Part shown: positions 1 through 35,419 of the stretch, piece by piece
Numbering within the stretch: the stretch's first letter is position 1
Layout of the letters: each line of letters starts with the position of its first letter
Assembly (NCBI GenBank): GCA_023146115.1
Contig: JAGLCS010000128.1
Coordinates: 1-39,211, forward strand
Source of the DNA: Abyssibacter sp.
GTDB taxonomy: Bacteria > Pseudomonadota > Gammaproteobacteria > Nevskiales > OUC007
DNA: 39,211 bases
Direction: 5' to 3'
The notes under the pieces: model-generated
The model's database searches: none
Told to the model about the DNA's origin: nothing
The model's input: only the letters and a program-made list of their open reading frames with translations
Made by a program: the position numbers and the translations under genes

Positions 1-639
1 CTGGAGCGCTCGCTGGATGAGCTGGGCGTTGCACCGCGTGTGCTCAAGGGCGATGACGCCGAGCAGGTGTTGGCCAAGCTCGAACTGGACGACATGGAAG
101 ATCTTTACGCCAGCATCGGCCTGGGTCGGCGCCTGTCGCCGCTGGTGGCCCGCCTGTTCCTGGAACCTGCTCAGCAGAACAGCGCCATTGCACTGGTCGC
201 CCCGTTGGCGATTCAGGGCACGGAGGGCCTGATCGTCGAGTACGGCGGCTGCTGCCATCCAATCCCCGGCGATCCGATCCGCGGCCATGTCTCGATGGGG
301 CGCGGCATCGTGATTCATCGGGTCGATTGCAAATCCGGCATTCAGAACCGCAAGGGTGGGCCGCATGACTGGGTTTCGTTGTCCTGGTCCGATGATGTCG
401 AGGGTGACTTCATCGTCGAACTGCGGATTCAAGGGCCCAATCAGCGCGGATTCCTGGCCACCGTTGCCACCGAGATCGCCGATGCCGGTTCCAGCATCGA
501 GAACGTGAACATGTCGGACCGGTCCAGCGGGATGGCGGATATGCGCATCAACATCACCATCCGTGACCGCATTCACCTCGCGCAGGTCATGCGCGGTCTG
601 CGACGCCTCGATATCGTCGAGCGCGTGCAACGCAGCTAA
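1..639 (+). CDS. spoT: Bifunctional (p)ppGpp synthetase/hydrolase SpoT, C-terminal part (5' end outside window)
   Basis: Open from base 1; YGGCCHPIPGDPIRGHVSMGRGIVIHRVDC TGS/zinc-finger-type region followed by a C-terminal ACT domain; followed by ridA and recG. Confidence 0.92.
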   Translation: MERSLDELGVAPRVLKGDDAEQVLAKLELDDMEDLYASIGLGRRLSPLVARLFLEPAQQNSAIALVAPLAIQGTEGLIVEYGGCCHPIPGDPIRGHVSMGRGIVIHRVDCKSGIQNRKGGPHDWVSLSWSDDVEGDFIVELRIQGPNQRGFLATVATEIADAGSSIENVNMSDRSSGMADMRINITIRDRIHLAQVMRGLRRLDIVERVQRS

Positions 640-766
640 GGAAACACTGATCTATTCTCACCACCGAGACGGAGTGAGCGCGGTTTGATCATTCCAAATG
701 AGCGAACGACCACGCAGGCTTGCGGGAAAATCGGCAACTTGGCGGCGTGATTAGATCAGTGTTTCC
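640..766 (+). mobile_element. MITE-like element, copy A (127 bp, internally deleted relative to copy B)
   Basis: Perfect 15-bp TIRs GGAAACACTGATCTA (640-654) / TAGATCAGTGTTTCC (752-766), flanked by 4-bp direct repeat CTAA (636-639 and 767-770); internal blocks shared with 17014-17276. Confidence 0.8.
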
Positions 767-795
767 CTAACGTCCCCCATTTATCTGGAGCAACC

Positions 796-15619: not shown

Positions 15620-16993
15620 GTGAAAATCATCATTCTCGGTGCCGGACAGGTGGGCTCCACGCTCGCGGAAAATCTTGCGGACGAGAACAACGACGTCACC
15701 GTGATCGACACCGACGCCGGCCTGTTGCAGGACCTGGCGGATCGCCTCGACATTCGCACCGTCCATGGGTCGGCGTCCTACCCCAACATCTTGCGCCAGG
15801 CCGGCGCTGATGACGCCGACATGATCATCGCCGTCACCGATTCTGACGAGATCAACATGATCGCCTGTCAGATCGCCTACACGCTGTTTCACACCCCGAC
15901 CAAGATCGCTCGTGTGCGCGCCGCCGAGTACCTGAACGAAAAGAATCTGTTCAGTCAGGAAGCGCTGCCGGTGGACATGCATATCAGTCCGGAGCAGCTG
16001 GTCACCGACTACATCCGGCGTCTGATCAAGTATCCGGGGGCATTGCAGGTGGTGGACTTCGCCGAAGGCCGGGTGAGGCTGGTTGGCGTGCGCGCTTACT
16101 ACGGCGGCCCGCTCGTGGGTCAGGAGTTGCGTGAGCTGGCGCATCACATTCCTGGTGTGGAGACGCGCGTCGCGGCCATATACCGTCGCGGCAAGCCGAT
16201 CATTCCCGAGGGCGACACCATCATCGAGGCGGAGGACGAGGTGTTCTTCGTCGCCGATCAGCGGGACATCTCCAAGGTTATCTCCGAGCTGCGCAAGACC
16301 GACAAGGAGGTCAAGCGCGTGATTCTGGCCGGGGGCGGCAACATCGGCCTGCGGCTGGCCCGTGCGCTGGAAGGGCATTGCCAGGTCAAGCTCATCGAGC
16401 GCTCGCGTGAGCGGGCGCGGCATCTGGCCGAACAGCTCAACCACACGGTGGTGCTGGTGGGCGATGCCGCCAGCGAGAATTTGCTGCTGGAAGAACACAT
16501 CGAGTCGGCGGACGTGTTCTGCGCCGTGACCAACGATGACGAGGCAAACATTCTTTCGGCCATGCTGGCCAAGCAGCTGGGTGCCCGCAAGGCGATGGCG
16601 CTGATCAACCGCCTGGCATACGTGGATCTGGTCGAGGGCGGCGCGGTGGACATCGCCATCTCGCCGCAGCAGTCCACGGTGTCGGCGCTGCTGGCGCATG
16701 TCCGGCGAGGTGACGTCGTGCGGGTCCACAACCTGCGTCGCGGCGCGGCCGAGGCCATCGAGGCCGTGGCCCATGGCGATCCCAAGTCATCCAAGGTTGT
16801 GGGGCGTCGCGTCGATCAGATCAATTTGCCCAAGGGCGCGACGATTGGCGCCATCGTGCGTGGTGAGCAGGTGCTAATGGCGCATCATGACACCGTGATC
16901 GAACCCGAGGACCACGTCATCCTGTTCATCGTCGACAAGACGCTCACCCCCAAGGTGGAGCGCCTGTTCCAGGTGGGCGTCACGTTCATCTGA
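15620..16993 (+). CDS. trkA: Trk system potassium transporter NAD-binding protein TrkA
   Basis: [32 protein letters not shown]; duplicated RCK/Rossmann halves. Confidence 0.96.
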
Positions 16994-17013: not shown

Positions 17014-17276
17014 GGAAACACTGATCTATTCACACCACCAAGACGGAGTCGGTTTTCCCGCAAGCCCAGGCGGAGCGAGCGCGGTTTGGTCATTCCAAAT
17101 GAGCGACGACCACGCAGGCTTGCGGGAAAACCGGCCCGTTCCATCCGGATTGCGCCTGAAAACGGGCCACGCGGCGTTGCTCGTCGCTTGTTTGGCATGA
17201 CCAAACTTCACTTCTCGCGCCTTGCCTGGCCTGTTTTCAGGCGGCAACTTGGCGGCGTGGATAGATCAGTGTTTCC
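17014..17276 (+). mobile_element. MITE-like element, copy B (full-length, about 263 bp)
   Basis: Terminal GGGAAACACTGATCTAT (17013-17029) / ATAGATCAGTGTTTCCC (17261-17277) perfect 17 bp, extending to 27/30 bp; right flank CTAG, left flank CGAG; three further internal inverted repeats. Confidence 0.85.
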
Positions 17277-17280
17277 CTAG

Positions 17281-18735
17281 ATGGACGACTTCTCCCCAGT
17301 CCAGCGCATCGTCGGCCAACTGCTGATGTTGTTCTCGATCAGCATGCTGCCGCCGGCGGTGGTCGGCCTCTATTTTCAGGATGGCGGCGTGGCGGCCTTC
17401 GTGACCGCGTTCTTCATCACGTTGATCGCCGGTTCTGTGGTCTGGTATCCGGCCCGCCATCAGCATCGGGAACTGAAGATCCGCGATGGCATGCTCGTCG
17501 TCGTGTTGTTCTGGGTGGTGCTGAGTCTGTTCGGCGCGATTCCGCTCTACCTGTTCGAACGGCCGTTCCTGTCGATCACCGACGCGGCCTTCGAAGCGGT
17601 TTCCGGGCTGACCACGACCGGGGCCACGATTCTGGTCGGAATCGATTCCCTGCCGCATTCGGTGCTCTGGTACCGCCAGCAACTCCACTTCTTGGGTGGC
17701 ATGGGCATCATCGTGCTGGCCGTGGCGATTCTGCCGTTGCTGGGTGTGGGGGGCATGCAGCTTTACCGGGCGGAAACGCCGGGGCCGATGAAGGATGCCA
17801 AGCTCACGCCCCGCATTACGGAGACGGCCAAGACGCTCTGGCTGATCTACATCGGCCTCAACGCGGTCTGCGCCGTGGCCTTCTGGCTGGGCGGCATGAC
17901 CTGGTTCGACGCGATCTGCCACGCGGTCTCGACCGTTGCAACCGGTGGGTTCTCGACCCACGACCAGAGCATGGGCTACTACAACAGCGCGGTGCTGGAA
18001 GGCATTGCCGTGGTGTTCATGATTCTCGGCTCGTTGAATTTCGGCCTGCACTATCTGGCCTGGCGGTCAGCCTCCGTCAACGCTTATTTGAAGGACCCCG
18101 AAACGCGCGTGTTCTTTATGGCGGTGGGCATTGTCACCGTCATTGGCACCGGGTATCTGTATCTCGAAGGTACCTATGCGCGGCTGCCGGAGTCATTCAT
18201 GGCGGCGATCTTCCAGGTCGTGTCCATCGGCACAACGACCGGATTCACCACGGCCGAGTACACGCTGTGGCCGAGCTTTCTGCCGATGCTGTTGCTGCTG
18301 GGTTCCTTCGTCGGCGGTTGCGCGGGTGGAACCACCGGCGGCATGAAGGTGATCCGGTTTTCGCTGATCGTGCGGCAGGGGCGGCGAGAGGTGATGCAAC
18401 TGCTGCATCCGAGCGCGGAACTGCCGATCAAGGTGGGTTCCAAGCGGGTGCCGGACCGGGTGATCCAGGCGGTCTGGGGTTTTTTCGCCGCCTACGTGCT
18501 GATATTCGTGACCATGATGCTGGCGCTGATGGGGCTGGGACTGGACGAGGTCACGGCCTGGTCGGCTGTCGCGGCCTGCTTGAACAACCTGGGTCCGGGG
18601 CTGGGCGATGTGGCGACCAACATGGCGTCGGTGGGTGATCCGGAAAAATGGATTCTGATCCTGGCGATGTTCTTCGGGCGGCTGGAGATCTTCACATTGC
18701 TGGCCATCCTCACCCCGGCCTTCTGGCGCCGGTGA
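17281..18735 (+). CDS. trkH: Trk potassium transporter membrane subunit TrkH
   Basis: TTTGATIL, TVATGGFSTHDQSMGYY, GTTTGFTTAEY, CAGGTTGGMKVIR selectivity-filter loops. Confidence 0.96.
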   Translation: MDDFSPVQRIVGQLLMLFSISMLPPAVVGLYFQDGGVAAFVTAFFITLIAGSVVWYPARHQHRELKIRDGMLVVVLFWVVLSLFGAIPLYLFERPFLSITDAAFEAVSGLTTTGATILVGIDSLPHSVLWYRQQLHFLGGMGIIVLAVAILPLLGVGGMQLYRAETPGPMKDAKLTPRITETAKTLWLIYIGLNAVCAVAFWLGGMTWFDAICHAVSTVATGGFSTHDQSMGYYNSAVLEGIAVVFMILGSLNFGLHYLAWRSASVNAYLKDPETRVFFMAVGIVTVIGTGYLYLEGTYARLPESFMAAIFQVVSIGTTTGFTTAEYTLWPSFLPMLLLLGSFVGGCAGGTTGGMKVIRFSLIVRQGRREVMQLLHPSAELPIKVGSKRVPDRVIQAVWGFFAAYVLIFVTMMLALMGLGLDEVTAWSAVAACLNNLGPGLGDVATNMASVGDPEKWILILAMFFGRLEIFTLLAILTPAFWRR

Positions 18736-33557: not shown

Positions 33558-35333
33558 ATGAAATCACGGGTCGCAGGGAGCTTGATGTTGAGCATGGCCG
33601 TCGCGGTCGGACTGGCGGCCTGTGCCGGCGGGGGGGATCGCCAGACGCTAGCGGACCAAGAGCCGGTGCAAGAGCCGGCCACCACTTCGTCGGATCGGGC
33701 GAGCAATGCGACAGTGGCGCAGCCTCCGGCCGACGCTGGGGCCGCGATGGCGCAGGCGGCCAGCCCGAAACAGGCGATGCGATCCGCCCTGTTCGCTCGG
33801 GAGAACATGGCGAGCATGATGCTGCCGCCGCGCATGCCGCCGGCCGCGCCATTCAACCGGGAAGGCTACGAGGCCATCACCGAGAACCGCTTTCACGACC
33901 CGCAGGTCACGCCGTTGTCGACCTTCGGCCTGGATGTGGACACGGCGTCCTATACCAACCTGCGACGCCTGCTCAACGCCGGGCAGACGCCCCCGATCGA
34001 TGCCGTGCGCATTGAGGAACTGGTGAACTACTTCGACTACAGCGAGTTGCCGGTCAGCGGGCGGCACCCGATTCGCCTACGCACGGAGCTGACGGAGGCC
34101 CCCTGGGCTGATGGGCATTTGCTGGCCATGGTGCAGGTGGCCGCACACGCGCCGAAACCGGCGCAGGCACTTCCGAATCGTCTGGTCTTTCTGATCGATA
34201 CCTCCGGCTCCATGCAGGCGCCGGACAAGCTGCCCATGCTGCAGCGCGCTTTCCGTCAGCTCACCGAACAGTTGGGCCCGGAGGATTCGGTTGCGATCGT
34301 GACCTATGCCGGCAACGCCGGCGTCGCATTGCCGGCCACGAGAGGGGATCAGAAGTCCAAGCTCTATGAGGCCATTGGCCGCATGCAGGCAGGAGGCTCG
34401 ACGGCTGGCGCACGCGGCATCGAGCTGGCCTACCAGATCGCGCAGCAACAGTTCGATGCCGAGGCCAACAACCGAGTGATTCTGGCCACAGACGGTGACT
34501 TCAACGTGGGCGCCTCCAGCCAGGGCGAGCTGGTGCGGTTGATCGAACAGCGACGCGACCAGGGCATCTACCTGACCGTGCTGGGTTTCGGCACCGGCAA
34601 CTATCAGGACGGCCGCATGCATCGCCTGGCCGATCATGGTGACGGCAACTACTACTACATCGACACGGATCTGGAGGCGCGGCGGGTGTTGGTCGACAAG
34701 CTCCAGGGCACGCTGGTGACCGTCGCCAAGGACGTCAAGCTGCAGGTGGAGTTCAATCCACAGCGTGTCGCCCAGTACCGGCTGCTCGGCTACGAGACGC
34801 GGGCGCTCGCCGCCGAGGACTTCAAGGACGACCGCAAGGACGCCGGTGACGTCGGCGCCGGCCAGCGGGTGACGGCCTTGTACGAGATCGTGCCGGTGGG
34901 CGCGCAGACCGGCGCCCCTGACGCACTGCGCTACCAGACCCGTAAGCCGACCCCCGCGAGCCAGCGCAAGGACGAATGGATGCTGGTCAAGGCGCGCTAC
35001 AAGCAGCCGGATGGCGGGGCCAGCACCGAGTTGCGTAACGTCGTGGAGGCGGATGTCACCGCACTTGCCCAAGCATCGGCGGATCTGCAATGGGCCGCTG
35101 CAGTCGCTGAGTTCGGTCTGGTGATGCGCAAGTCCGAACACGCCGCCGACGCCAGCTTTGCCGATGTGCTGCGCCGGTCGGAGCGCCTTGCGCAGCGCAT
35201 CGATGACCCTGCCCGGGACGAGTTTGTCGGGCTGGTTCGCCAGGCCAACCTGCTGGCCAAAGCGCCGGAACCGCTCCGCATGGGCCGGGACTATCAGCCG
35301 GCACATCAGACCACCGCGCGGGTTCAGGAATAA
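33558..35333 (+). CDS. von Willebrand factor type A domain lipoprotein (YfbK-like)
   Basis: Lipobox GLAAC; VWA N-terminal domain PLSTFGLDVDTASYTNLRRLL; MIDAS DTSGSM; C-terminal YRLLGYETRALAAEDFKDDRKDAGDVGAGQRVTALYEIVPVG. Confidence 0.9.
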   Translation: MKSRVAGSLMLSMAVAVGLAACAGGGDRQTLADQEPVQEPATTSSDRASNATVAQPPADAGAAMAQAASPKQAMRSALFARENMASMMLPPRMPPAAPFNREGYEAITENRFHDPQVTPLSTFGLDVDTASYTNLRRLLNAGQTPPIDAVRIEELVNYFDYSELPVSGRHPIRLRTELTEAPWADGHLLAMVQVAAHAPKPAQALPNRLVFLIDTSGSMQAPDKLPMLQRAFRQLTEQLGPEDSVAIVTYAGNAGVALPATRGDQKSKLYEAIGRMQAGGSTAGARGIELAYQIAQQQFDAEANNRVILATDGDFNVGASSQGELVRLIEQRRDQGIYLTVLGFGTGNYQDGRMHRLADHGDGNYYYIDTDLEARRVLVDKLQGTLVTVAKDVKLQVEFNPQRVAQYRLLGYETRALAAEDFKDDRKDAGDVGAGQRVTALYEIVPVGAQTGAPDALRYQTRKPTPASQRKDEWMLVKARYKQPDGGASTELRNVVEADVTALAQASADLQWAAAVAEFGLVMRKSEHAADASFADVLRRSERLAQRIDDPARDEFVGLVRQANLLAKAPEPLRMGRDYQPAHQTTARVQE

Positions 35334-35409
35334 CCAAACCGCACTCCTCGCGCCTTGCCTGGCCTGTTTTGAGGCAGCAACTTGGTGGTGTGACCAGATC
35401 AGTGTTCCC
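35332..35409 (+). mobile_element. MITE-like element, copy C (5'-truncated)
   Basis: 82 nt (35332-35413) align without gaps to 17199-17280 of copy B, about 70 identical by eye; right TIR AGATCAGTGTTCCC then CTAG; left half absent. Confidence 0.75.
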
Positions 35410-35419
35410 CTAGTTCTCC

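Follow-up and report, generated by a model that had tools for sequence, protein, structure and literature searches.

Small mobile repeats are often found directly after genes, which raises the question whether such elements are directed to stop codons or whether stop codons are simply among the few places where they can survive. The window analysed here (the whole stretch of 39,211 nucleotides from the marine bacterium Abyssibacter sp.) presents this question at the junction between spoT and the next gene, where a 127-bp repeat begins directly after the spoT stop codon. The features of this junction are:

40-639, plus strand: 3' part of spoT (ACT domain), with the stop codon TAA at 637-639
636-639, no strand: left copy of the 4-bp target duplication, CTAA, which contains the spoT stop (read directly; family-wide flank agreement)
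640-766, plus strand: copy A, a 127-bp non-autonomous element, internally deleted derivative of a full-length form of about 263 bp
640-654, plus strand: left terminal inverted repeat of copy A, GGAAACACTGATCTA
752-766, minus strand: right terminal inverted repeat of copy A, TAGATCAGTGTTTCC
767-770, no strand: right copy of the target duplication, CTAA
796-1179, plus strand: ridA-type gene (Rid family, Ribonuc_L-PSP), next downstream of spoT

The open reading frame at 40-639 encodes the C-terminal part of SpoT, as indicated by matches to RelA/SpoT models of NCBIfam and by an ACT_4 domain. The original prediction placed the 127-bp copy directly after the spoT TAA with CTAA on both sides (636-639 and 767-770), and read the left CTAA as the final base of a Ser codon (AGC) plus the stop; the sequence and the 40-639 reading frame confirm both statements. 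Copy A begins with GGAAACACTGATCTA and finishes with TAGATCAGTGTTTCC, its terminal inverted repeats being 15 bp long and perfect, and the CTAA sequences around it form a direct rather than an inverted repeat. We found that the same junction lacks the element in two sister species (G001 and G002), in which spoT stops at the same codon position but with TGA. The CTAA target must therefore have been created by an earlier G-to-A substitution in the stop codon, before the insertion.

The element belongs to a dispersed family. A search of its own genome, a 3.39 Mb draft in 192 contigs with 63% GC, returned 95 matches, or approximately 45 elements after pairing of ends, while the two other species of the genus gave 43 and 34 matches. 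Across the genus there are about 40 element copies per genome, with a full-length form of approximately 263 bp, and the terminal inverted repeats recur in about 40 copies. Since many contigs of the draft break inside these repeats (C8, C3, C127, C180, C43, C120 and others), both the copy number and the number of intact copies are underestimated there. A pattern scan of the genome contigs for the right end of the element gave no match. At one locus of the draft (L067, positions 1-60, on contig C76), the C-terminus of a gene reads through an end-like sequence, TTGAATCAGTGTTTCATTAG; another copy follows directly, with the site in common, and the G001 orthologue has a different end. The window contains two further copies:

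17014-17276, plus strand: copy B, full-length 263-bp element with a three-armed fold, between a trkA-like gene (15620-16993) and a trkH-like gene (17281-18735)
17277-17280, no strand: right flank of copy B, CTAG, directly before the trkH ATG
35327-35409, plus strand: copy C, a right-half remnant
35410-35413, no strand: right flank of copy C, CTAG

The left flank of copy B is CGAG (one mismatch). Its right flank adjoins the trkH-like ATG (17277-17283), so that the end of the element fills the usual position of the ribosome binding site. A vWA/YfbK-type gene (33585-35333) runs into copy C and has its stop TAA (35331-35333) inside it; this gene therefore draws its last codons and its stop from the copy (35327-35333), a repeat turned coding sequence. 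No Rfam families were found in the window at gathering thresholds. The elements are short (127-263 bp), with terminal inverted repeats, a target duplication, multiple dispersed copies and empty sites in relatives, and even copy B, at full length, could not accommodate a transposase and contains no such open reading frame. Judged by these features, copy A is a miniature inverted-repeat transposable element (MITE), non-autonomous and gene-less, which would be mobilised in trans by a transposase. The ERIC elements of enterobacteria resemble it in being about 127 bp long, palindromic and extragenic, although their sequence is not known to be related. ERIC and similar repeats have been discussed among prokaryotic MITEs (PMC10969869).

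We examined the flanks of element ends in the three species and found that 120 of 175 are exact YTAR (CTAG 72, TTAA 30, CTAA 11, TTAG 7), with 44 more only one mismatch away. Among 37 two-ended copies, the first flank position was the same on both sides in 30 (19.7 expected) and the fourth in 29 (18.0 expected), values that 0 of 5000 shuffles reached, with the small circularity that, where sub-terminal support was weak, the flank itself helped to decide whether an end was included. Agreement beyond shuffles points to duplication of 4 bp, not to a constant tag, and the genome-wide YTAR duplication on which the original prediction depended is thus present. The GTAG tag of REP elements belongs to the element itself, and we considered whether CTAA might likewise be part of this element or the agreement be due to chance. 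The two flanks do differ in some copies and a YTAR pattern is common to most flanks, yet this explanation is extremely improbable, since the flanks vary between CTAG, TTAA and CTAA while still agreeing between sides, the CTAA at copy A is direct, and empty sites exist both at the spoT-ridA junction and at another gene, where G001 has a one-ended match on a CTAG stop and the orthologue in the draft genome keeps its CTAG stop with no element. For the family as a whole, an assignment to REP or REPIN elements, which have a constant inverted tetranucleotide tag and no duplication, was rejected because the flanks vary and repeat directly. One stop-codon insertion (L058 in the draft genome, L093 in G001) appears common to both species, which indicates that stop-codon insertions can be old.

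The target and the ends of the element match those of IS5-group MITEs, and copy A accordingly looks IS5-group-like. The target of IS5 is YTAR (PMC10359306, PMC11677980), so that a 4-bp YTAR duplication is common to IS5 of E. coli, the IS5 group and the Abyssibacter element; IS5 carries a transposase, whereas the Abyssibacter element has none and its own assembly contains no matching one. Neither PF01609 nor a direct protein search detected an IS5-type transposase in G001, which is 99% complete, and the only IS5-type matches in the draft genome lie on contig C186, without matching ends. G002 contains an IS5-family element (L080, 1017-2220; NF033581, 342 bits) that has the ends GGARRCTCTGCAC and is flanked by TTAA left and right. 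It has the tip in common with the MITE (10 bp, GGARRC.CTG against GGAARCACTG) but differs from GATCTATTC in its sub-terminal sequence, and an element of this type is absent from the draft genome, G001 and a further genome, G036. Since the tip agrees and the remainder differs, its parentage is a lead rather than a result, and we regard it as a candidate mobiliser only. A close precedent is MITEPsy1 of Pseudomonas syringae pv. phaseolicola, a gene-less element of 100 nt with 18-nt ends starting GGAAGGTCTG, a 4-nt duplicated target, CTAG or YTAA, and ends similar to those of the IS5-family ISPsy2 (PMC3189936). It resembles the Abyssibacter element in its small size, lack of genes, tip and target, and differs in length and, as far as it is described, in its interior. 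MITEPsy1 has few copies, 2 of 6 genomic copies interrupting loci, and its transposition was shown experimentally in a living strain (PMC3189936), while for the Abyssibacter element we infer it. The passages of that description consulted contain no stop-codon association (PMC3189936).

Copy B folds into three arms with a DNA energy of -90 kcal/mol (z -11.5). Across 23 copies, drawn from the same genus and from other families in the order, standard pairs fill 96.9% of the pair cells in the core, and changes on both sides occur in 56 of 82 pairs (28 in shuffles; 0 of 500 shuffles reached the observed value). Selection on the fold may account for such double changes, as may correction of one arm from another by template switching. 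A core of approximately 200 nt with a double arm is common to elements of the order and the class that have quite different terminal repeats (17014-17276; L153, L155, L163 and L238-L241). G036 carries the same core with other ends (GGGCCTGTTAAC..., AACCTATCC...) and a duplication that looks like TA only, the first base of the element apparently completing TAG, for which reason its counts were kept separate from those of the three species. A third end type in G036, (G)AACCTATCCGTGAATTG, was observed at L165 (5636-5925), L168, L169 (11134-11397) and L171, and the flanks there point to duplication of TTA or TA. When one 98-nt arm was used as a covariance model, 33 of the 185 genomes sampled from the class gave matches; frequently these were two arms in inverted orientation, separated by about 107 bp, and further end types were seen. 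We tentatively propose, with less than even confidence, that the core is a widespread gammaproteobacterial module whose fold is kept by paired changes and whose terminal repeats were swapped several times (GGAARCACTGATCTA; GGGCCTGTTAAC...; GAGCCTATCC...), moved by different transposases and always to TA-centred, YTAR-like targets including stops. No description of the core was found in the literature searched, although such absence is weak evidence.

The frequency of stop codons among insertion sites must be compared with the sites on offer. As a null we classified all YTAR sites in approximately 1.4 Mb from the three species with a purpose-written codon-usage gene caller. About 51% of the sites lie inside coding interiors, and the stops of called genes make up 77 of 204, 202 of 569 and 41 of 131 non-CDS sites in the three species, so that 36% of the YTAR sites outside CDS interiors, about one third, are stops. 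Element ends lie on stop codons in 47 of 169 cases against 30.7 expected (1.5-fold, P = 0.001). This excess is due to copies of which a single end is visible (35 of 87 on stops, 15.9 expected), while intact copies show none (12 of 41, 14.2 expected). Survivorship, in which truncation spares the side next to the gene, would explain the truncated copies better than those at contig ends of the draft genome, in which stops coincide with 11 of the 20 visible ends. Ends face the 3' end of a gene more often than sites do (61% against 50%, P = 0.005), and when only 3'-facing sides are compared the use of stops (47 of 100) is close to that of background sites (332 of 825, P = 0.20). Only 4 of 132 copies, some of them doubtful calls, lie inside a CDS, as against the approximately 51% expected from the sites. 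A two-fold enrichment from our first per-end count was rejected as targeting, because intact copies show no enrichment and the effect disappears when gap orientation is controlled. Overlap of YTAR insertions with stop codons recurs as had been predicted, but an enrichment of stops as targets is not supported. The original prediction also supposed that such elements build up between operon genes; instead, stop sites in tandem gaps are used below their availability (8 of 33 against 193 of 435, P = 0.03), and the enrichment is in convergent gaps, which hold 31 of the 76 copies that could be classified and 162 of the 762 sites (P = 0.0003).

These data suggest, at a probability of roughly 0.8, that stop codons are safe harbours left by selection rather than preferred targets, target specificity and selection being nearly sufficient. 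A true preference of the transposition machinery for stops or transcription ends, for example through DNA opening linked to termination, would fit the excess above the simple null when all ends are pooled, the copies at contig ends of the draft genome, which are presumably young, and the related G036 family, in which 10 of 20 two-ended copies adjoin stops against 21% of sites. However, the G036 count is inflated, since the first base of the element, G, seems to complete TAG, and neither the intact copies of the genus, nor the 3'-facing sides, nor the tandem gaps show what such a preference would produce; we consider it unlikely. The element might instead be kept after stops by positive selection because its hairpin acts on the 3' end of the mRNA as a stabiliser, processing site or terminator. 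Its fold, which is very stable (as RNA, copy A has -54 kcal/mol and z -5.1; as DNA, copy B has z -11.5), the strong covariation and the enrichment in convergent gaps are compatible with such a role, yet no terminator or promoter was found near copy A, intact copies are not enriched at stops, many copies are truncated, and the fold may serve transposition or simply follow from palindromes, all of which makes this role very unlikely. The literature searched does not describe insertion of IS5-type MITEs at stop codons, an absence that is weak evidence.

Under the safe-harbour reading, the gene-less copy A would owe its movement to a DDE transposase acting in trans, which would recognise GGAARCACTG ends and cut a 4-bp YTAR target, here the CTAA formed by the last base of spoT and its stop codon; the duplication itself is observed. 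Since the whole stop codon lies within these 4 bp, the insertion would leave the stop of the upstream gene as it was and add no more than a spacer in front of the downstream gene. The prediction that a YTAR element can insert at a stop without harm to the protein agrees with this geometry, in which duplication preserves the stop, and with the many independent cases, 47 ends on stops in three species. Stops would be frequent hosts because they account for about a third of the YTAR sites outside gene interiors in a compact genome of 63% GC. Selection would remove insertions in coding interiors, as their near absence indicates, and apparently disfavours the 5' sides of genes, to judge by the 3'-facing and convergent bias; a dedicated targeting of stop codons would be unnecessary. 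Preservation of the stop by duplication is most important where two convergent genes have their stops in a single YTAR site. At locus L045, a 45-bp remnant is immediately preceded by the TAG (1533-1535) that ends a plus-strand gene and immediately followed by the stop of a minus-strand gene; at L156 in G036, each flank likewise serves as the stop of one of two convergent genes.

The Abyssibacter element is a new representative of a known kind, an IS5-group-like MITE. What it offers is a quantitative explanation of the position of small mobile repeats immediately behind genes: since TAA or TAG within a target is a stop codon whenever the target lies at a gene end, target sequence and selection nearly suffice. 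It also provides the correct null for similar claims about YTAR or TA elements, namely the proportion of stops among the target sites that are tolerated. The three-armed core deserves its own study and, if new, its exchanged ends would raise the separate question of how such modules change transposases.
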